This document shows positions 4,802 through 44,252 of a stretch of 64,000 bases of DNA, one piece after another. The stretch spans positions 1 to 64,000 of the forward strand of contig NZ_JAEK01000013.1 of the NCBI RefSeq assembly GCF_000518865.1, in the 5' to 3' direction. This stretch comes from Bacillus sp. J37 (GTDB lineage Bacteria > Bacillota > Bacilli > Bacillales > Bacillaceae). Made by a program: the position numbers and the translations under genes. Below the pieces are notes generated by a model. It searched no databases. It had not been told where the DNA came from and saw nothing but the letters and a program-made list of their open reading frames with translations. How positions within the stretch are numbered: position 1 is the first letter of the stretch; every line of letters begins with the position of its first letter.

Positions 4802-5911
4802 TTATGCTTTGTATGGCTTCTTCAAAATCTTTTCTTTGATTAACAGCGTAAGTAATAATGCGAACGGAATCATTATTTGAAATGGTATATGCAAGTAATA
4901 AGGAACTAAATCCAAACCTTCCTGTAAATGTTCTTGATAGGTAGAGGCAATGATAATCGAAAAAAAGAGTATCATTCCACCTACAGAATAATTTATAAGT
5001 TGATGAGGTTTCATCGAAAACAATTGGTTTATACCCATTACACCACAAAAGAAAAAAATAGTTATTTTTACAAAACCTAAGATGACCATTAATGTAATAA
5101 TAAGAGTATCTAACCTTTGAATAAAGTCAGCTATGTTTATATTTGAAACCGCTGTAAGTGAGGGGAACGCAGATCGAATAATTAGATCTGGTCCAATCAC
5201 ACTAATAAGCATAAGCATATTAAATGTTAGATAAAGCCCCGTACAAGCAATAGCGAACAGTCCGGTCTTCATCACTTTTTTCTTATTGTTAATATAGGGG
5301 AGAAGCATCGTAAATGTAATAAGTTCCCCATACGGGACAGTTATACCAAGAGGAAAAACCTCCTTTATTATCGGCTTCAAACCATTACTTAATACCGGAA
5401 TGATATTTTCAGGTGATATGTATCCTCCAATAACATACATTGTATTAATGACGAACAGGGAAAATAACATGATGGCAAAACAGATAACAGCCACTCTTGA
5501 AAATACCTCTATCCCCAAGTTAACTGCATAAATTAATACAAGCATAATACAAATTCCTAGTGTAGTCATGGAAGTTCTAAAATATGGAGAAATGACTAAC
5601 ATTTCCAAAAAATCCCGAAGTACTCTAGCAGCAATGTATATAAAATAAATGATATAAGAAAGACCAACTATTGATCCCAAATATTTTCCCCAAATAATTT
5701 TCGTATATTCTATCAATGATTTGTCAGGGAACTTTGTAAATAGATAATAGTACAAGTAAAACACTGCTCCACCAAACAATGGTGAAATAAGAGATACTAG
5801 CCAAGCATCTTGCATGGCTCCACTGCCGATGTCTAACAAAACCGCAGTGCCGAATAAAAACAATACCATCATACAAAAAAATTGAACTTGACCAATTTGT
5901 ATCTTTGTCAT
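4802..5911 (-). CDS. gerKB: Spore germinant receptor B subunit (GerAB/GerKB-type permease)
   Basis: This 369-residue, about ten-helix protein belongs to the spore-germination permease family (PF03845, APC superfamily). Typical features are IQIGQVQFFCMMVLFLFGT at the start, PYGELITFTMLLPYI in the middle and DTLIITLMVILGFVKIT later. In dormant spores the B subunit sits in the inner membrane and binds the germinant. It is the last gene of the operon, 10 bp after the C-subunit gene. Gene order A-C-B is that of gerK in Bacillus subtilis rather than gerA or gerB, but orthology and the germinant cannot be decided from sequence. Confidence 0.88.
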   Translation of the reverse strand: MTKIQIGQVQFFCMMVLFLFGTAVLLDIGSGAMQDAWLVSLISPLFGGAVFYLYYYLFTKFPDKSLIEYTKIIWGKYLGSIVGLSYIIYFIYIAARVLRDFLEMLVISPYFRTSMTTLGICIMLVLIYAVNLGIEVFSRVAVICFAIMLFSLFVINTMYVIGGYISPENIIPVLSNGLKPIIKEVFPLGITVPYGELITFTMLLPYINNKKKVMKTGLFAIACTGLYLTFNMLMLISVIGPDLIIRSAFPSLTAVSNINIADFIQRLDTLIITLMVILGFVKITIFFFCGVMGINQLFSMKPHQLINYSVGGMILFFSIIIASTYQEHLQEGLDLVPYYLHIPFQIMIPFALLLTLLIKEKILKKPYKA

Positions 5912-5921
5912 TGATTCTCAC

Positions 5922-7112
5922 TCATTTCATCTCAAAAGTATTCGTACGCATTCCTGTATTCGAAATCTTTGAGTTGATATTAATTAAGAAGGAGGCTTTC
6001 GAAAATAATTCATCCCACTCCTTTTTGTGCTTTTCCCAATACTTAGGGTCAGTTTTAGAAAGTTGTTCACCAAATCCTAAAACATCTGTTTGTTCTTTTT
6101 GGACAATTTCCATTACTTGATTAATTTGCGATTTTACCTCATCTTCAAGAGTCTTTTCTATTCTCTCGATTGTCTTTGGGTCCTCTAGATCCATATTGCA
6201 ATTATAATCACTTATGAATGCTGGAAGAGACACATCTATCCTTAATGAAATTTCACTTTTACTAACTTTTGTAATTAAGGTAGAGTTACTGTCCTGAGTT
6301 GTTAATGTTAACTTTTCGTTATTACTACCAGAATCAATCTGTGAACAAGAAAAGGGGAAAGTAGTACTCTTGCTTTCTGATAAGATCATTCGGGCTGTTC
6401 TTGCTAGTTCACCATCTAACCAGCGAACTAAGCGATCATCTTTAAATAATCCTATCCCATCAACTTCTATAACAGCTGGTGTCATTTTCTCTAAGTTCTG
6501 GCTTTGACTGACTCCCTCTTTAGGTTTACTATGACTTATGCCCGTAATAATAGGGGCTTTTCCTTCTGAGGAGAACATACTGACAAGCTCATATATAGGT
6601 ATTAAATCTCCAATTCCATACATGTTTTTGTTGTTTTCTGTTGTACTTATAATACTTTTACTCGGGTTTGACTCAATAGGTTCAACTACTTCCAAAACTT
6701 CCTCGGCAGTCATGCCTCTGGAAATGAATACTAACACACTTGATCTTGTTTGTTTGGCACGCTCAAAAGCATCGAGTAATGGAAAAATACCTTCTCTTGC
6801 TTGTTCTTCTCCTATTATAAGGAGGGAAAGATGTGATGTTATAATTTCTCTAGGGATATAGGCGGAGGATTTTCGATAAGCATCGTTCAAGGTTTCTCCT
6901 TCAATTGGATAATTAATTAAGGGTAAACCAGGTGAATTACCTCCTGTTTTGGTTAATTGTCCCGGGTTTACTACTTGAAAGGTAACACGATACCCATCTT
7001 CTTTTCCTTTGTCTACTCCTACTGAAATGATTGCAGCTAGGTTATTAAGTTCTCTATAATTTGAACAACCGGATAACAACATACATATCAAAATCAACAA
7101 TATTTTCTTCAT
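5922..7112 (-). CDS. gerKC: Spore germinant receptor C subunit, lipoprotein (GerAC/GerKC-type)
   Basis: The protein has 396 residues with a lipoprotein signal peptide ending in the lipobox LLSGC (cysteine near residue 16), followed by SNYRELNNLAAIISVGVDKG, the conserved opening of Ger(x)C proteins (PF05504). ATG 7112 is preferred over an upstream in-frame start because AAAGGAAAA precedes it and the signal peptide begins there. The mature protein is attached to the outer face of the spore inner membrane and is needed for receptor function. It lies 19 bp after the A-subunit gene and 10 bp before the B-subunit gene. Confidence 0.88.
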   Translation of the reverse strand: MKKILLILICMLLSGCSNYRELNNLAAIISVGVDKGKEDGYRVTFQVVNPGQLTKTGGNSPGLPLINYPIEGETLNDAYRKSSAYIPREIITSHLSLLIIGEEQAREGIFPLLDAFERAKQTRSSVLVFISRGMTAEEVLEVVEPIESNPSKSIISTTENNKNMYGIGDLIPIYELVSMFSSEGKAPIITGISHSKPKEGVSQSQNLEKMTPAVIEVDGIGLFKDDRLVRWLDGELARTARMILSESKSTTFPFSCSQIDSGSNNEKLTLTTQDSNSTLITKVSKSEISLRIDVSLPAFISDYNCNMDLEDPKTIERIEKTLEDEVKSQINQVMEIVQKEQTDVLGFGEQLSKTDPKYWEKHKKEWDELFSKASFLININSKISNTGMRTNTFEMK

Positions 7113-7131
7113 AGGTTTTCCTTTCAGTAAG

Positions 7132-8622
7132 TTAAGAATCATTTGGCTTTTTGGAAGAGGAAAGTGAATCTTGATCTTTCTCCATAGATGAATAGGATGT
7201 TCGGATAAAACTATCCTCTAGTCCTTCTAATTCCAAAAGTGCAAAGGGTGCAAAATAAGGTTTCCCAAATGATCTTAAACTACTAAGATGTAGTAAAAAA
7301 GTGAGTGTCATCAATAACACACCCAATAGACCAATAAATGCAGAACTGAATAAGAATAGAAAACGTAAAATGCGTGCTAAATTCATCGTGCTGGTATTCG
7401 GGAAAGTGAAACTACTAATTGCTGACGTAGCGACAATTATCACCACTGCGGCAGATACAAACCCAGCATCTACTGCAGCTTGTCCCAAAATAAGTGCACC
7501 CACAATCGAAACAGCAGGACCGATTGCCCTAGGCATTCGTATACCTGCTTCTCGTAGAATTTCAAATGCTATTTCCATCAAAAGGATCTCAAACACTGCA
7601 GGAAAGGGGATTTTTTCCCGTTGAGCCATTAAAGAAACTAGTAAGGTAGTTGGTATTAACCCTTGATGATGTGTGGTTAAAGCTAGATATAAAGATGAAG
7701 CATATAAATTAATAATAAATGTTATGACTCTTAGTGTTCTCACAAGAGAACTATAATAAAAGTTGTTGTAATAATCTTCAGGTGTATGAAAGAACGAAAT
7801 AAAATTTACTGGACAAATTAAAACAAAAGGGGTTCCATTAATAAAAATGGCTATCCTTCCTTCTGATAAGTTTCCTGCGACAACATCTGGCCGTTCGGTA
7901 TTTAGTAACTGAGGCAAGATTGTTTTCTTGTTGTCCTGAATGAGTTCCTCTATATAATTTGATTCAAGCACCCGATCAATTTTTATTTTTTTGATGCGAG
8001 AGTAAACTTCATTCACTATTGCTTTGTCTGCAATTCCTTCTATATACATGATCATCACATCTGTCTTAGTAACAGATCCTACTTTCGTGCTTAATACTCT
8101 TAAATTCTTATTTTGAATTCTAAAACGAACAAGTGATATATTTTGACTAATATTTTCATTGAAACTATCTTTTGGCCCTCTAATCACTGTTTGGCTTGTC
8201 GGTTCACTAATAGATCGAGATTCTACTCTTTGTGTGCTAGCTACGATGGCTTTCTTTTCATTATTAAGTAAAATAATCGTATCCCCGGATAGAATGGAAG
8301 ATATAAGTTTATCCCAAGAATAGATCGTGGATGTTTTTGTAAGGATAATATTATTCATAATTTCATCTGGTTCTATAGCTGGTTGACGGTTACAGATTTT
8401 AATGATTGGTTCCAATATATGATCATTAATTTTTTGATCGTCCACAATACCATCTAGATGAATGATCGCTAAATTAGTTTGATTATTATATTGATTTACG
8501 ATTCTTATGGAAAGATCACTACTGATTCCAAATTCATCTTTTAAGTGATCAAGATTTACTTGAAGATCTTCATCAATGTTTTTGAATGTATCAGATCCTA
8601 AATTGCTATTATGTTCCTTCAA
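7132..8622 (-). CDS. gerKA: Spore germinant receptor A subunit (GerAA/GerKA-type)
   Basis: The protein has 496 residues, the usual size for the GerA family (PF03323). A hydrophilic N-terminal domain of about 250 residues is followed by membrane segments with the family hallmarks: ALTTHHQGLIPTTLLVSL, EILREAGIRMPRAIGPAVSI-type and SSFTFPNTSTMNLARILRF. Translation starts at TTG 8622 with GAGGTGA upstream. As first gene of the operon it would be transcribed in the forespore under sigma-G; I could not identify a convincing sigma-G promoter in the upstream 297 bp. Confidence 0.9.
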   Translation of the reverse strand: MKEHNSNLGSDTFKNIDEDLQVNLDHLKDEFGISSDLSIRIVNQYNNQTNLAIIHLDGIVDDQKINDHILEPIIKICNRQPAIEPDEIMNNIILTKTSTIYSWDKLISSILSGDTIILLNNEKKAIVASTQRVESRSISEPTSQTVIRGPKDSFNENISQNISLVRFRIQNKNLRVLSTKVGSVTKTDVMIMYIEGIADKAIVNEVYSRIKKIKIDRVLESNYIEELIQDNKKTILPQLLNTERPDVVAGNLSEGRIAIFINGTPFVLICPVNFISFFHTPEDYYNNFYYSSLVRTLRVITFIINLYASSLYLALTTHHQGLIPTTLLVSLMAQREKIPFPAVFEILLMEIAFEILREAGIRMPRAIGPAVSIVGALILGQAAVDAGFVSAAVVIIVATSAISSFTFPNTSTMNLARILRFLFLFSSAFIGLLGVLLMTLTFLLHLSSLRSFGKPYFAPFALLELEGLEDSFIRTSYSSMEKDQDSLSSSKKPNDS

Positions 8623-34187: not shown

Positions 34188-36491
34188 ATGCAACCTGAAA
34201 TAAAGCTATCTGTACGTTCATTAGTTGAATATGTGTTTCGAAGTGGAAGTATTGATCAACGATTTCGAACTGCCACAACCCTTACGGAAGGAACAAAAGC
34301 TCATCAAGCCATCCAAAGGACGTATCAAGAAAATGATGAGAAAGAAGTCTTTCTAAAAACAGAAATTGAGTATAAAAAAATAATGTTCATCATTGAAGGT
34401 CGATGTGATGGGTTGCTATTTCGCGATGATAAAATCCTTATTGATGAAATCAAGTCAACTTCAAGAGAATTGAGTGACATAGAGGAAGAGTCAGTCCCTG
34501 TACACTGGGCACAGGCAAAGGTTTATGCCTATATATATGCCAAAGATTATGGACAGAACGATATGATTGTTCAATTAACTTACATACATGCTGTTACATC
34601 AGAGCAAAAGAAATTTCAAAAACTTTTTACTTATCAAGAACTCGAACAGTTTGTATTTGGATTAGTGAAGCACTATTATCCATATGCATCTCTTATGCAA
34701 AACCATCAACTGAGAAGAAATCATAGTATTAATCAACTATCATTTCCATTTACCACATATCGAGAGGGTCAACGTAAGCTTGCAGGTGTCGTTTATCAAA
34801 CTATTTCAGAGGAAAAGAATATTTTTGCAAATGCACCTACTGGTATTGGAAAAACCATTTCGACGATTTTCCCAACACTGAAGGCGATCGGAGAAGGCAA
34901 ACTGCATCGCATGTTTTATTTAACAGCAAAAACCATCACAAGACAAACCGCAGAAGAAGCTTTTTCACTTATGAAGACTAAGGGATTGTGTATGAGTGCT
35001 GTTACGATTACAGCCAAGGAAAAAATCTGCTTTAAAGAAGAAACCATTTGTCAAAAGGAATATTGCGAATTTGCGAATGGATATTACGATCGAATAAATG
35101 AGGCTGTTCTCGATATTTTCTCTAATGAAACGTTTATTAATCGTCAAAAAATCGTGGAATATGCGAGAAAGCATACGATTTGTCCATTTGAATTTTCCTT
35201 AGATCTAGCATTTGTGGCAGATGCAATTATTTGTGATTATAACTATATTTTTGATCCAAAAGTGTCACTAAAGCGGTTCTTTGATGAACATAAACGAAAG
35301 TCCGCCTTATTAATCGATGAAGCTCATAATCTGGTTGATCGAGCAAGGGAAATGTTTTCAGCTGTATTACAAAAATCCGATTTTCTTTCATTAAAACGTG
35401 CTTATAAAGGGTCTGTTTTGTATGAATCAGTTCAAAAACTAAATAAATATTTTATTGAACTGAAGAAAAAGTGTTCTGAAAAAGGATATCTTGTGTGGCG
35501 GGAATTGGATGAACATCTGATCAACATACTTGAAGAATTTGTAGACAAGGCAGAAAAAGAATTAGTACAACCTTCAAAACAAGTTGAGCAATCAGGTCTA
35601 TTAGAAACCTATTTTGCTGCAACTGGATTTGTTCGAATATCAAATCTCTATGATGAACAATATGTTACGTATGTTGAAATAGAGAAAAATGAAGTTCGTC
35701 TTAAAATGTTTTGTTTGGATCCTTCTCATCTATTACAGCAGGTTAGTAAGAAGTTTCGGACAACTGTCTATTTTTCTGCAACTCTTTTACCATTTCAGTA
35801 TTATTTAGATATGTTAGGTGGTACGACTGAGGATTATACCATTTCGATTCCTTCACCATTTGAAAAAGAACAAACAGAGATATTCCTTCAACCTTTATCG
35901 ACTCGATACCAAGACCGAGAGCGTTCAAAAAAGCCGATCATTGATATGCTTTCAAAGCTTTTGAAAGCACGCAGCGGAAACTATTTGATCTTCTTTCCTT
36001 CCTATCACTATATGAACAGTGTATATGATGACTTTATTACTAGCTGTCCTGACATTCGTACCATTATTCAGACAAACAGGATTGATGAGAAGGAAAGAGA
36101 ACAATTTTTAGAAGAGTTCAAAGAAGATAATACAGAACCATTTTTAGGCTTTGCGGTGTTAGGTGGTATTTTTTCTGAAGGTGTTGACTTAAAAGGGAAT
36201 AGGCTAAATGGTGTCATCGTTGTCGGAGTGGGTTTACCACAGCTTTGCCTGGAACGAAATATAATGAAAGATTATTTTCAAACAACAGGAAAAAACGGAT
36301 ATGATTACGCATATACCTTTCCCGGCATGAACAAAGTGTTACAGGCAGGTGGCCGATTAATCAGATCTGAGACCGATACCGGAGTAATAGTACTTGTTGA
36401 TGATCGGTTTCTGACTCAGAAATATCAAGGACTTTTACCAAGGGAATGGAGGGATTTTGAATATGTTCAAAATCTCCCGATTGATAAATAA
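34188..36491 (+). CDS. Cas4/RecB-like nuclease fused to XPD/DinG-type iron-sulfur helicase
   Basis: The protein has 767 residues. Residues about 1-170 are a PD-(D/E)XK nuclease-like domain: GTKAHQAIQ, RCDGLLFRDDKILIDEIKS (D...E-x-K near residue 80-86) and AQAKVYAYIYAK. The helicase follows with Walker A NAPTGIGKT (about 214-222), an XPD-type cluster of cysteines (about 281, 287, 293 and 331: CFKEE, CQKEYCEF, CPFEF), DEAH (about 376), and motifs VYFSATL and QAGGRLIRSETD (motif VI). Family members unwind DNA 5'-3' with an Fe-S cluster. Single-gene unit; a role in repair is inferred. Confidence 0.87.
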   Translation: MQPEIKLSVRSLVEYVFRSGSIDQRFRTATTLTEGTKAHQAIQRTYQENDEKEVFLKTEIEYKKIMFIIEGRCDGLLFRDDKILIDEIKSTSRELSDIEEESVPVHWAQAKVYAYIYAKDYGQNDMIVQLTYIHAVTSEQKKFQKLFTYQELEQFVFGLVKHYYPYASLMQNHQLRRNHSINQLSFPFTTYREGQRKLAGVVYQTISEEKNIFANAPTGIGKTISTIFPTLKAIGEGKLHRMFYLTAKTITRQTAEEAFSLMKTKGLCMSAVTITAKEKICFKEETICQKEYCEFANGYYDRINEAVLDIFSNETFINRQKIVEYARKHTICPFEFSLDLAFVADAIICDYNYIFDPKVSLKRFFDEHKRKSALLIDEAHNLVDRAREMFSAVLQKSDFLSLKRAYKGSVLYESVQKLNKYFIELKKKCSEKGYLVWRELDEHLINILEEFVDKAEKELVQPSKQVEQSGLLETYFAATGFVRISNLYDEQYVTYVEIEKNEVRLKMFCLDPSHLLQQVSKKFRTTVYFSATLLPFQYYLDMLGGTTEDYTISIPSPFEKEQTEIFLQPLSTRYQDRERSKKPIIDMLSKLLKARSGNYLIFFPSYHYMNSVYDDFITSCPDIRTIIQTNRIDEKEREQFLEEFKEDNTEPFLGFAVLGGIFSEGVDLKGNRLNGVIVVGVGLPQLCLERNIMKDYFQTTGKNGYDYAYTFPGMNKVLQAGGRLIRSETDTGVIVLVDDRFLTQKYQGLLPREWRDFEYVQNLPIDK

Positions 36492-36506
36492 CTTTTGTTA
36501 TCTTAA

Positions 36507-36536
36507 GGGAAACGATTAGTCGTTTCTCTATTTTTT
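36507..36536 (+). terminator. Terminator after the helicase gene
   Basis: GGGAAACGA and TCGTTTCTC form a short stem around TTAG, followed by a TATTTTTTTG tract. Confidence 0.75.
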
Positions 36537-36721
36537 TGTGCCCAGCAAGCCGTTAACCTATTAAAATCTTAGAAATAATTAGGCTCTTTCACCAGTAGCA
36601 ATACCCACCCAATTTACATATTTTGTTGAAGAAGTATGTGATTACCAAAAGACAGGTTTATATTTAAGTGTCCGTTTCTCGTCACTGGTCCCAGGTAAGT
36701 ATTATGAGGAGGTTTTACTTA

Positions 36722-37030
36722 ATGAATAATTTTCAACAGGATCTTCAGATGTTAAATCTTGGAGATTACCAAGCAACTCAGGCTGTACCTTATGACCCGA
36801 ATCAATATTATTATGATGATGAAAGACTGTACGTTGGTATAGGCGGTTTATTCCGTTGTTATAGTTGTTTTAGTTGTTATAACTGTTTCAATTGTTATAA
36901 CTGCTTTAGCTGTTTCAGTTGCTTTAATTGTGGCGGCGGCCGTTGTGGCGGAGGTCGCTGTGGTGGAGGTCGTTGCGGTGGCGGTGGTCGCTGTGGCGGA
37001 GGCGGCGGAGGCCGCTGCGGAGGAAGATAG
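36722..37030 (+). CDS. hcaA: Heterocycloanthracin/sonorensin-type TOMM precursor peptide
   Basis: The 102-residue peptide has a leader of about 45 residues (NNFQQDLQMLNLGDYQATQ, VPYDPNQYYYDDERLYVG) like those of Bacillus heterocycloanthracin precursors. The core contains nine cysteines in an exact three-residue register (C-F/Y-S/N; C46 to C70), then a glycine tail with cysteines at 75, 80, 85, 91 and 99 (GGGRC units). Fourteen cysteines and four core serines are candidates for thiazole/oxazole formation by the enzymes encoded downstream. ATG 36722 follows GAGGAGG at 36706-36712; an upstream in-frame ATG at 36668 lacks a ribosome site. A hairpin separates this gene from the enzyme genes. Confidence 0.9.
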   Translation: MNNFQQDLQMLNLGDYQATQAVPYDPNQYYYDDERLYVGIGGLFRCYSCFSCYNCFNCYNCFSCFSCFNCGGGRCGGGRCGGGRCGGGGRCGGGGGGRCGGR

Positions 37031-37055
37031 AATAAAATTCGTTAATAAATATGGA

Positions 37056-37087
37056 AAGTCTCTACATAAGGTTGTAGAGGCTTTTTC
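37056..37087 (+). terminator. Partial terminator between precursor and enzyme genes
   Basis: AAAGTCTCTAC pairs with GTAGAGGCTTT (one mismatch), followed by TTTTT. It would favour high precursor expression over the modifying enzymes. Confidence 0.75.
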
Positions 37088-37175
37088 TGATTGACATAAC
37101 GGACAAATAGCCATTCATAAAATGGTAGTACTGTATGTTGAAAGACAATGGCAACTGCGGTTAAGGAGGATCGAT

Positions 37176-39074
37176 ATGACAAACTTATACCCTTCTATGC
37201 GTCTGAAGGTGAAAAGGGACACGTTTTTTCTCCCTGAAGCTAACAGCGGTGTATATTTTCGGAATAATGTAAGTTCGTTTCGTATGGAAGGCAGTATGAT
37301 TGATAAGTGGGTTGAGAAACTGATACCGATGTTCAATGGAGAAAATACTTTAGAGAGTCTGACAACAGGATTACCAGGACCTTATCGTGATCGAGTGTAC
37401 GAAATTGCTGAAACATTGTATCAAAATGGATTTGTTAAAGATGTAAGTCGGGACCATCCGTATCAATTGCCTGAACATGTCCTCAAAAAGTATGCTTCAC
37501 AAATTGAATTTATTGATAGTTTTGTAGATTCTGCCGCGTTTCGATTTCAGAATTATCGACAGGTAAAAGCATTGGCAGTTGGTTCAGGAGATATGTTTGT
37601 TTCATTGATCTCCGCATTACTAGAATCTGGGTTACCTAAGTTTCAAATACTCATAACAGATAGGAAACAGACAAATATACAGCGGCTGCATAAACTCATG
37701 GCACATGCCCGAAAAAACGATTCGGAGGTTGCAGTCGAGGAGATCTCACTAAGCACTTGGAGAGAGATTGTGGAGCCGTTTGATTATATATTATACGTGT
37801 CACAAGAGGGGAATGTAGAAGAGCTAAAACTTCTCCATACGATTTGTAGAGAAGAAAAGAAAGTGTTTATCCCTGCTTTATGTTTACAACAGATTGGGAT
37901 GGCGGGTCCTGTCGTTTTACCAAGCTCAGAGTATTGTTGGGAATCTGCATGGCGCAGGCTTCACCGAACAGAACTCTTTAAAGAAAATCGAATTTCTTCT
38001 TTTTCCACAACAGCCGGGGCCATGCTTTCTAATCTCATTGTATTTGAATTGTTTAAAAACATTACCGGGGTGACTGAGGGAGATAAGAATAATCAAACCT
38101 TTTTACTGAATTTAGAAACGATGGAAGGAAACTGGCATACATTTCTTCCTCATCCACTATGTAGTGGAAAAAAGGTAACTAGGACTGTAGACGATTTTGA
38201 CGAACGCACTCAGCGAGATCTGGATAGAGAAGAAATAGGAAAATTACTTCTTTTTTTCAATAAATTAACATCAAAGGCAACAGGGATTTTCCATACCTGG
38301 GATGAGGGAGATTTGCTGCAGCTCCCGTTAGCACAGTGCAGGGTTCAGGCAATCGATCCCTTGTCTAATGGACCTGCTGATTTGTTGCAAAGTGTCATCA
38401 GTTCGGGACTAACGCACGAGGATGCTAGAAGGGAAGCAGGTCTCGCCGGAATTGAAGCATACGCAATGCGATTAACGGCCATGCTCAATCTGCCAACAAA
38501 TGTTCAAATTTGTGCAGGTGAAACATTTACGGAAAGTGTCTATCGTGGGTTACAAAAGTGTTTAGTACAGGAGATGAAAAGAAGTCAGACAAACAATACC
38601 GTTTCTCTATCTCGAATCAAGTTGAATACAGTAGAAGATGAGCGATCCAGGTTTTATTTACAGGCTTTATCAACGATACAGGGTGAGCCGTTGATTGGAT
38701 TAGGAGAGGAAGTCCATGGCTTCCCTGCAGTGTGGATCGGGACGAAACATGGATGGTATGGAAGTGTAGATACGAATCTAACACGTTCATTAAGAAACGC
38801 ATTGCAACAGGCTCTTTATAAATCACAAAACAATGAGGATCCGATAAATTTTCAAGGTTTAACCGCAGCATCCGTAATATTTATTGAAAAAGCACAAATA
38901 CAAATTAATATACCTGATGGTGATGCTCAGAAACATTCTATGCTTTTGCAATCTGCAAAGGAAGTATTGGGCCGTAATGGAAAGCGACTTGATATTTTTG
39001 AACTTGAACTAGAGCCAATTATAAAAGAGGGCTTAGCAGGGATATTTGGTGTCGTGGTTCGAGAGGAGGAATGA
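37176..39074 (+). CDS. hcaF: TOMM F protein (ocin_ThiF-like leader-binding partner)
   Basis: The protein has 632 residues and is similar in layout to the putative thiazole-containing bacteriocin maturation proteins (TIGR03693). The first 90 residues (LYPSMRLKVKRDTFFLPEAN, WVEKLIPMFNGENTLESL) form the winged-helix region that recognises the leader peptide. The middle resembles a ThiF/E1 Rossmann fold without an obvious catalytic ATP site (VKALAVGSGDMFVSLI). In the B. sp. Al Hakam heterocycloanthracin system the equivalent HcaF delivers the precursor to the cyclodehydratase. ATG 37176 follows AAGGAGG; the end overlaps the next gene. Confidence 0.87.
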   Translation: MTNLYPSMRLKVKRDTFFLPEANSGVYFRNNVSSFRMEGSMIDKWVEKLIPMFNGENTLESLTTGLPGPYRDRVYEIAETLYQNGFVKDVSRDHPYQLPEHVLKKYASQIEFIDSFVDSAAFRFQNYRQVKALAVGSGDMFVSLISALLESGLPKFQILITDRKQTNIQRLHKLMAHARKNDSEVAVEEISLSTWREIVEPFDYILYVSQEGNVEELKLLHTICREEKKVFIPALCLQQIGMAGPVVLPSSEYCWESAWRRLHRTELFKENRISSFSTTAGAMLSNLIVFELFKNITGVTEGDKNNQTFLLNLETMEGNWHTFLPHPLCSGKKVTRTVDDFDERTQRDLDREEIGKLLLFFNKLTSKATGIFHTWDEGDLLQLPLAQCRVQAIDPLSNGPADLLQSVISSGLTHEDARREAGLAGIEAYAMRLTAMLNLPTNVQICAGETFTESVYRGLQKCLVQEMKRSQTNNTVSLSRIKLNTVEDERSRFYLQALSTIQGEPLIGLGEEVHGFPAVWIGTKHGWYGSVDTNLTRSLRNALQQALYKSQNNEDPINFQGLTAASVIFIEKAQIQINIPDGDAQKHSMLLQSAKEVLGRNGKRLDIFELELEPIIKEGLAGIFGVVVREEE

Positions 39075-39076
39075 TG

Positions 39077-41023
39077 GTGAGTGCTAATTTGCTGGTTGTT
39101 GGTGAGGGCTTACTGGCAGACCTTTTTTGTAAGGAGCTATCCTCAGAATTTCTGATTGTCCGAAAGACACATGTTGATTCAGTCGTACCGGAAACCATTG
39201 ATTTAGCTATGGTCTTACATAATGAATGGAATCCTTCTATTGATCAAATCGCTGAAGATGTGTATCGGGCAAGCAATACCCCATGGCTTCGAGGGTGTGT
39301 TTCATTTGGAGAAGGCATTGTCGGGCCATTGGTTTATCCTGAAATTCCAGGTTGTTCTCAATGTGCCGATTTGCGCCGTATTATAACCGGAAGACATCGT
39401 AGAGAAATGTGGCAAATGCATAAAAATTTAGAGAACACTGGAAAATCTCAACATGAAGCCTGGATATCACGGACAGGGTTATTACAGATGGTCTATCTCC
39501 TTAAAACAGAGATTCAAAGGTTTATAAAAGAAAATCATTCTCAAGCAGAGAAGAGGATTGGTTTCATCAACCTAAAAACATTGAAGAGTTCATGGCATTC
39601 CTTCCTGCCTGTCCCACAATGTAAGGTATGTAGTTCCATACCTGATGATTCACCGGAATTAGCTCGAATTTCCCTTCAGCAAAGTCCGAAAATCAGTATG
39701 GAAAGTTATCGTACCCGTTCATTAGATGATCTGAAAAACGTGTTAGCCAAAGACTATCTTGATTCTCGAACAGGTCTGCTTAATGATAAGATGTTTAATC
39801 TCGTGCCTCCATTTGCGGATGTAAGTGTCAATTTACCTTTATTTGAGGGAGATGAAGGAACAGCCGGCCGTACAAATTCCTATGCTCAAAGTGAGTTAAC
39901 GGCCATTTTAGAAGGATTGGAACGATACTGCGGCCTTGAGCCCCGTGGAAAACGGACGAAGGTATATGACTCTTATGAAAATGTAAAAGATCAAGCCTTA
40001 AATCCACAATCGGTTGGTGTACATGAGACAGAACAGTATCAACGCCCGGGATTCCCCTTTGAAAAATTTGATCCTGACCGTCCAATGAAATGGGTCTGGG
40101 GCTTTTCTCTTTTGATTGAGCAACCGATTCTCATCCCGGAGTTACTTGCTTATTACAGTTTGGGGTGTGGATCACGAGGATTTGTCTATGAAACGTCAAA
40201 CGGATGTGCACTAGGAGGAAGTTTAGAAGAAGCGATTTTTTACGGCATTATGGAAGTGGTTGAGCGTGATTCGTTTCTTATGACCTGGTACGCAAAATTA
40301 TCTTTACCACGTATTGATCCATACTCCTCTGAAGATGAAGAACTAAAGTTGATGATTGAGCGGATGAGTACAGTTGGAGGATATGATCTGTATGTATATA
40401 ACTCTACAATGGAACACGGAATTCCAAGCATTGTCGCATTAGCAAAAAACAAAAAGCAAAAAGGGTTAAACCTAATCTGCGCAGCCGGGGCTCATTTGGA
40501 TCCAGTGCGGGCTGTGAAAACGGCTGTTCATGAGCTGGCTGGCATGATGTGGACATTGGATGAGAAACTGGAAGCAAACAAAGAAGAATATGTCCGTATG
40601 TTACAAGATTCATCCTTAGTCCAACAGATGGATGACCATGGTATGCTGTATGGATTACCCGAGGCAGAAGAACGGCTTCATTTTTTACTTAACAATAACT
40701 CTCCGATTAAAGCATTTAACGAAGCATTCAAGTGGAAGTCAAACCATGCTGACCTTACCGAAGATCTTCAAGATATCCTTCAAGCGTTACGGAGCGTAAA
40801 CTTGGATGTCATTGTCGTTGATCAGACTACACCTGAACTTAAACAAAACAGATTACATTGTGTAAAAGTGCTGATACCCGGAATGGTACCGATGACCTTT
40901 GGGCATCATCTAAAGCGTGTATCAGGTCTAGAACGGGTATTGCGGGTCCCTATGGAATTGGGGTATACGACAGAACCACTGACATATGAAAAGCTTAATC
41001 CACTTCCACATCCGTTTCCATAA
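39077..41023 (+). CDS. hcaD: YcaO cyclodehydratase with fused E1-like domain
   Basis: The protein has about 649 residues. The N-terminal third is an E1-like/Ocin domain with two zinc-type CxxC pairs (PGCSQCADLRR near residue 95 and PQCKVC near 180). The rest is a YcaO domain that uses ATP to cyclise Cys/Ser to azolines: SELTAILEGLERYC (ATP/Mg motif), EEAIFYGIMEVVERD and the diagnostic proline-rich C terminus PLPHPFP. AGGAGG at 39064-39069 best fits GTG 39077; ATG 39071 and 39074 are alternatives. It depends on the adjacent F protein for leader binding by analogy with HcaD. Confidence 0.9.
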   Translation: MSANLLVVGEGLLADLFCKELSSEFLIVRKTHVDSVVPETIDLAMVLHNEWNPSIDQIAEDVYRASNTPWLRGCVSFGEGIVGPLVYPEIPGCSQCADLRRIITGRHRREMWQMHKNLENTGKSQHEAWISRTGLLQMVYLLKTEIQRFIKENHSQAEKRIGFINLKTLKSSWHSFLPVPQCKVCSSIPDDSPELARISLQQSPKISMESYRTRSLDDLKNVLAKDYLDSRTGLLNDKMFNLVPPFADVSVNLPLFEGDEGTAGRTNSYAQSELTAILEGLERYCGLEPRGKRTKVYDSYENVKDQALNPQSVGVHETEQYQRPGFPFEKFDPDRPMKWVWGFSLLIEQPILIPELLAYYSLGCGSRGFVYETSNGCALGGSLEEAIFYGIMEVVERDSFLMTWYAKLSLPRIDPYSSEDEELKLMIERMSTVGGYDLYVYNSTMEHGIPSIVALAKNKKQKGLNLICAAGAHLDPVRAVKTAVHELAGMMWTLDEKLEANKEEYVRMLQDSSLVQQMDDHGMLYGLPEAEERLHFLLNNNSPIKAFNEAFKWKSNHADLTEDLQDILQALRSVNLDVIVVDQTTPELKQNRLHCVKVLIPGMVPMTFGHHLKRVSGLERVLRVPMELGYTTEPLTYEKLNPLPHPFP

Positions 41024-41040
41024 GAAGGGAGGACGGAAGG

Positions 41041-42606
41041 ATGAATCTTGATGAGTTTTTGCACAATCTCCATTTTGACGTCGACAAGGCAAGCATACCA
41101 AACTGGGAAGTGGATTGGGAAGATGGCCCCCTAGCTTACAAGCTTTACTATGACTTACCTGAAATCCCGCTTTCTTTGGATATCCCATTATCGCTGGAAG
41201 GTCAGGATGCTCCAGAAAAGCCTGATCATAGGAAAATCGGTCACTTTCTTTGGTATGTGTATGGAATGACCCAATTTAACCAATCAGTTTTCCAGTTGAA
41301 TTCGACCGAGAATAATCTGGAAGTCATGCAATCTTATAGAAGGTTTGCTCCTTCAGGTGGAGGTCTGTATCCAAACGAATTATATGTCTATTTAAAAATT
41401 GACGACTTACCTGAAGGTGTTTATCATTTTGATCCTTCACACCACCGCTTAGTCCTATTGCGTAAAGGCAATTTTGACGATTATCTTAACCGGACGCTCG
41501 GATACCAATGTGATCTTACATCTTGCTTTGGCACAGTTTTTATCTCCACGATGTTTTGGAAAAACTTTTTCAAGTACAATAACTTTGCTTACCGGCTCCA
41601 AGGGTTAGACACAGGTGTACTGATGGGGCAGTTATTAGAAGTGGCTAAGCGTTTTGGATTTGCATCAGGTGTGTACTATCAATATCTTGATCGTGCGATT
41701 AACCATCTTCTTGGACTCTTAGAACAAGAAGAGAGCGTATATGCCGTCATTCCGTTATCAGTAGAGCCAACCATTTGGTCAGGAATCCGTGATGGTATGA
41801 ATATCTCAGCGGCAGACCTTTTACGAGAATTACCTCCCATACACCATAAACATCATGTTAAATCAAAGAGAATAAAAGAGTTTCCGATGTTATTAAAAAT
41901 GAATGAAGCTTCCGTACTTGATTCTACTGCGTTTCGCTGGATCAAGGAAAAGGAGAATGGAGAAGTTGAGGGAAAGGTGGTACCTTTACCACTGGTTAAA
42001 CGGCTTTCGTATGATTTCAAATCTATCTGTCAAAAGCGAATGTCACCTGATATGGATTTCATTTTAGACAAGGTAAGTCTAAACAAACTTGCCCAACTTC
42101 TATATGAGGCGACATCATCTTTCTATTATCGTAATGACGTAGACGAAAGATATTTAACTGAAACACGTGTTTCTATTTTTGCCTGTTTGTATAGTATAGA
42201 AGGAATCCCTAATGGAGCTTATTTCTATGACAACAGTGCACACGCATTGCGTCTGGTAAATCCAGGGGACCACAGGCCCATGCTGCAATCCGGTATGCCT
42301 TTAGGTAATGTAAATCTCCTGCAAGTACCGATTACCATACATGTTGTCGGTGACAAGGATTACGAGAAGGATTCACTTGGCTACAGAGGATATCGAATTC
42401 AACAAATGGAAGCGGGGATGCTCGTCCAAAGATTATTATTAGCAGCATCAGCCCTTGAAATGGGTGGCCACCCTCTCCTTGGTTTTGATGTTAATCTAAG
42501 TGATCAACTTTACAACTTGGATTCTCTTGGAAAAACATGTTACATTCAAATACCAATTGGTCCTTATCGACAAAGGCCTTGGTTGATGGGAAGGCTACAT
42601 TCTTGA
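41041..42606 (+). CDS. hcaB: SagB-type FMN dehydrogenase with two nitroreductase domains
   Basis: The protein has 521 residues. Two SagB/nitroreductase-like halves are visible. The first (about 40-260) has SYRRFAPSGGGLYPNELYVY and DTGVLMGQLLEVAKRFGF; the second (about 310-520) has LAQLLYEATSSFYYRNDVDE, EGIPNGAYFYDNSAHALR and QMEAGMLVQRLLLAASALEM. SagB enzymes oxidise thiazolines and oxazolines to aromatic azoles with FMN. TIGR03605-type proteins of this double length accompany heterocycloanthracin clusters. The gene starts 17 bp after the cyclodehydratase gene with AGGGAGGACGG as ribosome site, and a terminator closes the operon. Confidence 0.88.
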   Translation: MNLDEFLHNLHFDVDKASIPNWEVDWEDGPLAYKLYYDLPEIPLSLDIPLSLEGQDAPEKPDHRKIGHFLWYVYGMTQFNQSVFQLNSTENNLEVMQSYRRFAPSGGGLYPNELYVYLKIDDLPEGVYHFDPSHHRLVLLRKGNFDDYLNRTLGYQCDLTSCFGTVFISTMFWKNFFKYNNFAYRLQGLDTGVLMGQLLEVAKRFGFASGVYYQYLDRAINHLLGLLEQEESVYAVIPLSVEPTIWSGIRDGMNISAADLLRELPPIHHKHHVKSKRIKEFPMLLKMNEASVLDSTAFRWIKEKENGEVEGKVVPLPLVKRLSYDFKSICQKRMSPDMDFILDKVSLNKLAQLLYEATSSFYYRNDVDERYLTETRVSIFACLYSIEGIPNGAYFYDNSAHALRLVNPGDHRPMLQSGMPLGNVNLLQVPITIHVVGDKDYEKDSLGYRGYRIQQMEAGMLVQRLLLAASALEMGGHPLLGFDVNLSDQLYNLDSLGKTCYIQIPIGPYRQRPWLMGRLHS

Positions 42607-42650
42607 TTCACAACTAAGACCTTAGCCGAAAAAGATGCGAACAATACATT

Positions 42651-42683
42651 AACCTTGATTGGCTCTTGCTATTCAAGGTTTTT
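42651..42683 (+). terminator. Terminator of the TOMM enzyme operon
   Basis: AACCTTGA and TCAAGGTT form an 8-bp stem over a 15-nt loop, followed by TTTTTT. Confidence 0.75.
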
Positions 42684-42800
42684 TGGTTCATAAAATGAAG
42701 ATTTTATCATGTTTTTTCAATTAGAGTAATGGAAGAAGGTAAGTCAATAAGAGGAAATACAAAGATAATGATGAAATATCTATAAATTAAAAAAATAAAA

Positions 42801-42814
42801 ATAAAGCGTTTACA
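42801..42814. promoter_or_regulatory. cre-like site upstream of the carbohydrate locus
   Basis: ATAAAGCGTTTACA matches 12 of 14 positions of the CcpA consensus TGWAANCGNTNWCA. A TATAAT at 42822-42827 follows. Confidence 0.45.
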
Positions 42815-42841
42815 TTTTTGATATAATCATTTAATATACTT

Positions 42842-43017
42842 AATAAAGGCACTGGAAAAAGTAAGTGATGAAAAATAGTTGTGATAAAGTCTTACAAACT
42901 TGTCGAAATCATCAAAATCACAATGTAAGCTCATAAATAAGGGTGAAGCATAGAGTTTATACATATAATGCAAACTCTCATGTGAAAAACTAAATAAAGG
43001 CACTGGAAAAAGTAAGT
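42842..43017 (+). repeat. Pair of identical 25-bp direct repeats before the ROK regulator gene
   Basis: Copies at 42842-42866 and 42993-43017 are identical (AATAAAGGCACTGGAAAAAG followed by TAAGT), 151 bp apart. The second ends 20 bp before the ROK start codon and directly precedes its AGAGGA ribosome site. The DNA between has no gene. The pair could be a regulatory duplication; otherwise unexplained. Confidence 0.8.
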
Positions 43018-43037
43018 TTTGAAAAGAGGATATATAA

Positions 43038-44252
43038 ATGGAAATTCAACGAACAGGGGACTTAAGGTTAATACAGGAGTTAAATCGTTCGCTAATACTA
43101 GATACAATTCGTAAGCGTGGTGCAATCTCAAGAACTGAAATTGCCAAAGCCATTAAGGTGAGTCCGACTACGGTTACATCTGCTGTAGCTGAGCTCATAA
43201 ACGAAGGTCTTGTTTATGAGGATGGAGTGGGAAGTTCAAGTGGAGGAAGGAAGCCGGTATTACTTCGCTTTAATCCGAAGGCCCACTCAGTCATTGGTGT
43301 ATCGATCACGAACTCGTTTATTAAAATTGCATATATGGATCTTGAAGGAAACATTCTTAAAAAAGAGGTACACCCTACGAACAATTGCCTTGGGGATGAG
43401 ATGATTCACCTTTTATTAGAAATTGTTGAAAGCTTTACGAAGAATAAACAGGACATTGAAAAATGCCAGGGGATTTCAATTATCACTCCAGGGATAGTGG
43501 ATGCAAATAAGGGGGTCATTTCCTATAACTCAAAATTGAAACTTTATAACGTTGAGTTGAAAAAAATAATCGAGGAGAAAATTGGCTTACCTACTTTTGT
43601 TGATAATGACGCAAATGCATATGTCTTAGCAGAAAACTTTTTTGGATCATTTAGCCATTATAAAGATTTACTATATGTAACGATTGGGGATGGTGTAGGT
43701 TCCGGTATTTTAATAAATGGATCGATTTATCGCGGTTTCCTTGGCAGCTCAGGAGAATTTGGTCATACAACAGTTGTTCAAGACGGAGTGAAGTGTGATT
43801 GTGGCAACAAAGGTTGTCTAGAAAACTATACGAATTGGCCAACCATCTATTCAAAAATCGTATCCGCGATCATCACGACAGGTTCTAATACAATCATTAA
43901 AGAACTCTCACAAAATGATTTAAACAAAATCAAACCTAATACATTTATTGAGGCTGTTAACCGTCAAGATGAATTGGCAGTGGAAATTTTAGAGGAAGTT
44001 GTGAAATACCTTTCTATTGCCGTCACAAATATTGTTCATATGTTTAATCCACAAGTTGTGATTTTAAGTGGAAGTATTGTTCAAGATAATCCGCTACTGT
44101 TAAAACGAATTAATGAAATGGTAGCAAGTAAGGTGATTCCGGTATTAAGAGATCGGGTTAACATTCAAAGTACATCACTTGGACCTGATTTTGAATTACT
44201 AGGATCAGCAGCTGTGCTGCTTCATGGAAAGTTTAAATTTGAAATTTCTTAA
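43038..44252 (+). CDS. ROK-family transcriptional repressor (XylR/NagC type)
   Basis: The protein has 404 residues. An N-terminal winged HTH (NRSLILDTIRKRGAISRTEI, AKAIKVSPTTVTSAVAELIN) is followed by a ROK sugar-kinase-like domain with the zinc motif CDCGNKGCLENY (near residue 255), GDGVGSGILINGSIYRG and a VDNDANAY segment. Such proteins repress sugar operons and dissociate when the sugar or its phosphate binds. It sits at the head of a carbohydrate transport and catabolism locus. AGAGGA precedes ATG 43038. Confidence 0.9.
   Translation: MEIQRTGDLRLIQELNRSLILDTIRKRGAISRTEIAKAIKVSPTTVTSAVAELINEGLVYEDGVGSSSGGRKPVLLRFNPKAHSVIGVSITNSFIKIAYMDLEGNILKKEVHPTNNCLGDEMIHLLLEIVESFTKNKQDIEKCQGISIITPGIVDANKGVISYNSKLKLYNVELKKIIEEKIGLPTFVDNDANAYVLAENFFGSFSHYKDLLYVTIGDGVGSGILINGSIYRGFLGSSGEFGHTTVVQDGVKCDCGNKGCLENYTNWPTIYSKIVSAIITTGSNTIIKELSQNDLNKIKPNTFIEAVNRQDELAVEILEEVVKYLSIAVTNIVHMFNPQVVILSGSIVQDNPLLLKRINEMVASKVIPVLRDRVNIQSTSLGPDFELLGSAAVLLHGKFKFEIS

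Follow-up and report, generated by a model that had tools for sequence, protein, structure and literature searches.

The heterocycloanthracin family of thiazole/oxazole-modified microcins (TOMMs), whose precursor peptides are recognized by the model TIGR03601 (Haft 2009), has been classed as bacteriocins since 2009 (PMC2674419). In a 64,000-nucleotide (nt) stretch of the Bacillus sp. J37 genome (contig NZ_JAEK01000013.1; hereafter the window), four genes lying in a row on the plus strand at positions 36722-42606 encode a precursor peptide, an F protein, a fused C-YcaO cyclodehydratase, and a SagB-type dehydrogenase, which together make up a complete cluster of the heterocycloanthracin/sonorensin family. 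All four genes exceed the cut-offs of the matching curated NCBIfam models, and the assignment to this TOMM family with its F-protein, YcaO, and SagB trio, first proposed in a sequence-only reading of the window, is borne out by these matches and by the literature. The cluster resembles heterocycloanthracin itself (PMC2674419) in its leader family, Cys-x-x repeats, F protein, fused C-YcaO, and SagB, and differs from it in that the precursor gene adjoins the enzyme genes, whereas it is found elsewhere in most B. cereus-group genomes, and in a core with aromatic residues, not CGG, in its first half. With the B. licheniformis/sonorensin member, compared through its B. licheniformis form, it shares a precursor gene next to the enzymes and an aromatic residue followed by Ser between Cys residues (Cys-Trp-Ser triplets in B. 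licheniformis), except that here Phe or Tyr takes the place of Trp and a Gly-Arg-Cys tail is added. Thiopeptide clusters having an F protein also combine it with a fused cyclodehydratase, but the named loci counted here (the best 80 of 391) contain no further conserved enzyme family; pyridine-forming and dehydratase enzymes were found neither there nor among the seven nearest neighbors of the window cluster, which by Pfam include no enzyme for ribosomally synthesized and post-translationally modified peptides (RiPPs). The chemistry is that of an already known family, of which this cluster is a further member. From its promoter anatomy, we propose in addition that the cluster is probably run by the mother-cell sporulation program, with its product placed onto the spore or freed at lysis.

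Upstream of the precursor gene, a GerE-type box (AATTAGGCTCTT, 36577-36588, plus strand), with one mismatch to the consensus RWWTRGGYNNYY, is followed on the same strand by a sigma-K-type promoter at 36596-36625, composed of a -35 element TAGCA with C at position 4, a 15-nt gap, and a -10 element ACATATTTTG. Both were checked against the sequence, and together they lie 97-145 nt 5' of the precursor start codon. According to PMC517825, from which we took the spacing and the C/T rule, sigma-K promoters combine a 5-nt -35 element, a gap of 14-16 nt, and a 10-nt -10 element, sigma-E promoters combine an 8-nt -35 element, a gap of 12 +/- 1 nt, and a 10-nt -10 element, and C replaces T at -35 position 4 in sigma-K relative to sigma-E; the spacing in the window agrees with the sigma-K layout given there. 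We defined as a composite any GerE-type box with at most one mismatch joined to the sigma-K layout, and excluded genes with <230 nt of upstream sequence. The composite was present in 89 of the 102 unique precursor upstreams and in 32/40 after thinning to <70% identity, and an exact box was present in 66/102 and 22/40, respectively. By comparison, only 3 of 456 other open reading frame (ORF) upstreams, a background cleaned of F genes and missed precursors, carried the composite, one of them with an exact box. The geometry is similarly constant, with 21 nt from the start of the box to the -35 pair in 86 of the 89 composites, while the simpler pattern [AG]C-N16-18-CATAnnnT was found in 101/102 upstreams with a spacer of 17 in 98 of these 101. 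Three further precursors outside the 102 (L055, L059, and L091) also have the composite. An alignment of 63 precursor upstreams yields the conserved block AAAaTAGGc.TTTg.ATCAGTAaCAATACCCA..cA..gt.CATA.tTTGTTGagGAG, which is kept across genera. The stretch of ~100-130 nt from the sigma-K-type -10 element to the precursor start (36626-36715 in the window) is also partly conserved in sequence, and 26 sequences of it gave no consensus RNA structure. A known Rfam element at the cluster is ruled out, as the sole match to E 1 within 36400-43100, with 22.9 bits, falls far below its gathering score of 86.7.

The precursor and F genes are separated by a predicted terminator-like hairpin, located by folding at 37055-37084 on the plus strand. 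A hairpin followed the precursor stop in 16/16 sequences folded (the window and 15 relatives, the relatives judged by eye), and under a strict test it was present in 46 of the 102 downstreams, whereas five shuffled sets gave 0-1 apiece; a general scan for sigma-70 promoters and terminators gave no more than shuffles and did not list the window hairpin. Beyond it, at 37096-37123 (plus strand, checked against the sequence), lies a sigma-E-type promoter of the form ATA-N17-CATAAAAT, which reads ATAACGGACAAATAGCCATTCATAAAAT and contains a SpoIIID-like box, ACGGACAAAT, at 37099-37108. The general pattern ATA-N17-CATAnnnT encloses GGACAAAT, which is SpoIIID-like. The corresponding layout ATA..GACA..CATAnnnT was found in 72/79 named loci (L096 was excluded, having no anchor) and in 1/456 background ORF upstreams, and with crude start calls it was found in 113/144 of all loci. 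The locus has predicted elements with the correct spacing for both the sigma-E and the sigma-K/GerE regulons. Sites of sigma-70 type were not in excess (12 found vs 17.9 expected).

Two successive mother-cell sigma promoters, with the enzymes first, the substrate last, and a hairpin in between, are what suggest a timetable. In a first step, sigma-E with SpoIIID would control the F-YcaO-SagB operon early, and in a second, sigma-K with GerE would switch the precursor on late, so that the enzymes would already be waiting for it; the hairpin after the precursor would keep the two transcription units apart. The F protein would then bind the leader, as reported for the family, and C-YcaO would close Cys, and perhaps some Ser, to azolines, which SagB would oxidize to give a poly-thiazole peptide. 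In the last and least certain step, the product would be placed on the spore surface or set free by mother-cell lysis, rather than secreted during growth. Such a route would need no exporter or immunity gene, because the dying mother cell releases its contents. Beside the four genes, the 80 named loci share no family of exporters, proteases, or immunity proteins, as judged from ORFs of at least 70 amino acids within ~6 kb (less at contig ends), a reach that must itself be counted against the proposal, and by Pfam the seven nearest window neighbors include no exporter, protease, or immunity gene. The promoters, the hairpin, and this absence of conserved export and immunity genes beside the cluster had all been overlooked in the sequence-only reading.

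Several other points weigh against a mother-cell timetable. The promoter pattern was noticed first and counted afterwards, and homology among the precursor upstreams means that the 102 do not count as independent cases; even if each layout represents one ancestral event, their background frequencies are ~0.7% for the GerE/sigma-K composite and ~0.2% for the sigma-E/SpoIIID layout. The promoter tests cover almost only precursors linked to an F gene (100 of the 102 have one in the fetched stretch) and do not extend to the B. cereus group. Identification of the GerE-type and SpoIIID-like boxes depends on the consensus letters used, and base preferences were assumed for the sigma factors. In the window itself, the -35 pair is GC instead of AC (with the C kept), the GerE-type box has its one mismatch, and the stricter AC...T[AG] form of the promoter, found in 81/102 upstreams, is lacking. 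Across the 5.3 Mb of the genome, the composite occurs at nine sites including this precursor, without enrichment (6 and 3 sites vs 20 and 5 when the pattern is reversed). Since the reversed pattern gives 25 sites vs nine, the composite alone is no regulon finder, and it carries weight through where it lies and how well it is conserved. Among the eight non-precursor sites, a recognizable coat gene is present only at one, which lies upstream of a CotD-family gene (PF11122, 86.2 bits). In favor of the proposal, the CotD-family gene of this genome is preceded by the same composite layout as the precursor, and in B. subtilis cotD is under sigma-K/GerE control, although cotD-type genes encode coat proteins and the gene considered here encodes a TOMM precursor. 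Another of the nine sites is directly followed by a gene for an 82-amino acid protein (L231) to which neither Pfam nor NCBIfam gave a match at E 0.01 or better, and which is a candidate coat protein. Also in favor of the proposal, two of the three CotZ-family genes carry an exact GerE-type box no more than 200 nt away, compared with 25/455 background upstreams. With one mismatch allowed, on either strand and within the same ≤200 nt, such boxes occur in 263/455 background upstreams and are therefore so common that the third CotZ gene offers no support and the composite must rest on position and conservation; the CotZ genes were accordingly dropped as a one-mismatch control. The regulators likewise speak for it, as the same genome has sigma-K, SpoIIID, and an 80-amino acid open frame matching the GerE domain. 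TIGR03601 matched none of the 15 genomes, among 397 sampled from the order, in which the best sigma-K match was weak (E > 1e-50, a cut of our own choosing), a co-occurrence that is confounded by phylogeny and constitutes weak evidence.

The same promoter evidence would equally suit an antibiotic that is made in the mother cell and freed by lysis without becoming a spore component. This sub-case of the mother-cell proposal, having the same timing and another role, is possible though rather doubtful. It requires no exporter, and one report describes sonorensin, a relative, as antimicrobial (PMC4544038), while another describes a family member as increased in B. cereus biofilm (PMC6962202). Both reports count against the mother-cell proposal as a whole, and because of them an antibiotic role stays alive; the absence of a conserved immunity family beside the genes argues in the other direction, as do the cores, whose very repetitive, Gly-rich makeup and variable length, in some cases with long GGI repeats, give the impression of structural proteins. 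The same two reports and the long-standing bacteriocin classification also favor a TOMM bacteriocin of the ordinary kind, secreted by cells in growth or stationary phase, in which case the upstream block would be bound by some other regulator and merely resemble sporulation promoters. We regard this as unlikely, given two separate mother-cell-type promoters that are both rare in the background, no excess of sigma-70-type sites, and 80 loci that share no exporter, protease, or immunity family. That the product is mainly a metal-binding or redox peptide left mostly uncyclized, as the 9-18 Cys per precursor in the family might suggest, is highly improbable for a gene accompanied by a cyclodehydratase, a leader-binding protein, and a dehydrogenase.

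If mother-cell control is extended from this cluster to its relatives, the family might largely be a sporulation product, i.e. a structural TOMM built into or onto the spore as armour, ultraviolet screen, or attachment layer and not a secreted antibiotic, an extension for which we consider the chances slightly short of evenly balanced. In titles and the beginnings of abstracts of the open-access literature, we found nothing that ties the heterocycloanthracin family to sporulation. Were the peptide made only in mother cells during sporulation, the product of a widespread family would go unnoticed in screens of growing cultures, and sporulating cells and purified spores would be the places to look for it. 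It would also mean that azole-bearing peptides are a new chemistry of the spore surface and that a RiPP pathway is tied to a well-mapped developmental timetable.

The precursor gene (36722-37030, plus strand, as are the three enzyme genes) encodes a peptide of 102 amino acids with 14 Cys and a two-part core. Its score of 52.2 bits against TIGR03601 (cut-off 35) and the recurrence of this leader and style of core at the equivalent position in relatives rule out a chance frame. The F protein (37176-39074; 632 amino acids) is ocin_ThiF-like with a predicted role in leader binding; it scores 774.5 bits against TIGR03693 (cut-off 561.9), and its residues 12-89 align to the solved chain of PbtF (8t19, E 4e-7). 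A start at 37176 is more likely than one at the first ATG of the ORF (37122), because TIGR03693 begins at ORF residue 19 and AAGGAGG precedes 37176. In the cyclodehydratase (39071-41023), the C and YcaO parts are joined in a single chain of 650 amino acids that matches TIGR03882 (137.8 bits) and TIGR03604 (421.3 bits), both above cut-off, which is the fusion typical of the family, and also matches TruD, LynD, and MusD. The SagB-type azoline dehydrogenase (41041-42606; 521 amino acids; TIGR03605 211.8 bits, cut-off 78.4) consists of two nitroreductase-like halves, as TIGR03605 and PF00881 each match in two stretches, and it matches McbC (6gos) and CyaGox. By eye, the N-terminal half contains a Lys-Tyr pair (FFKYNN), a pair that is catalytic in McbC, and the C-terminal half has Gly-Tyr at that place.

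Concerning the core, the sequence-only reading had described nine Cys in C-x-x register followed by five in GGGRC (three times), GGGGRC, and GGGGGGRC, a layout that we confirmed. It had also placed S or N before, and F or Y after, every triplet Cys, which is true for eight of nine in each case, the first Cys being preceded by Arg (FRC) and the ninth followed by Gly. Its view of the hybrid core as something special did not hold, since the same design, defined as three or more C-[FYHV]-[SNRHT]-C units with a GG..[RHN]C unit after them, is common to 50 of 101 distinct precursors (the window precursor included), with examples in Neobacillus, Mesobacillus, Priestia, Cytobacillus, and Metabacillus; a singular novelty is therefore ruled out. 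The core varies far more than the leader. Across these 101 precursors, the number of Cys ranges from 9 to 18 with a median of 14, and the residue preceding Cys is Arg in 535 cases, Gly in 300, Ser in 251, and Asn in 234. The few oxazoles once expected are doubtful. Ser and Asn interchange before Cys and Asn is unable to form an oxazole, so obligatory oxazoles at these positions are unlikely. The predicted product could carry up to 14 thiazoles as an upper limit. Three precursors (L060, L067, and L081) have long GGI-type repeats between leader and core and appear more like structural proteins than antibiotics, and two loci (L062 and L126) have a tandem pair of precursor genes upstream of a single enzyme set.

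The genome is Metabacillus-type, and its YcaO shares 91% identity with the M. halosaccharovorans protein and 92% with that of a strain labelled M. niabensis. Of 21 genomes in the genus, 10 have a TIGR03601 hit above cut-off, and exactly these carry this YcaO, at 68-100% identity. In one of them (G007; L018, L022, and L024), the YcaO is in three pieces of 68-86% identity with the precursor kept, through either decay or sequencing error, and in an eleventh genome (G017) the YcaO match is only 27% and the precursor is absent. At the level of the order, TIGR03601 was found in 94 of the 397 sampled genomes, in 81 of them above cut-off. The 80 named loci, from genera that we take to be sporeformers, contain YcaO in 80, the F protein in 79, SagB in 79, and the precursor in 76; the remaining large clusters consist of ORFs that overlap these genes antisense or out of frame, as judged by strand and position, and the next real neighbor families reach only 8/80 loci. 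One locus with the cluster (L087, YcaO identity 69%) is labelled Pseudomonas sp. ISL-84, an assembly that is probably misnamed or contaminated. A search for plasmid-borne copies gave a best identity of 53%. In the window, the cluster is flanked upstream by a DEAD_2-type helicase gene and two other genes, and downstream by genes for a ROK regulator, a solute-binding protein, and two permeases of an ABC importer. At 4802-8622 on the minus strand, the window also contains a germinant-receptor operon with GerA (PF03323), GerAC (PF05504), and Spore_permease (PF03845) genes, all of which score above cut-off.

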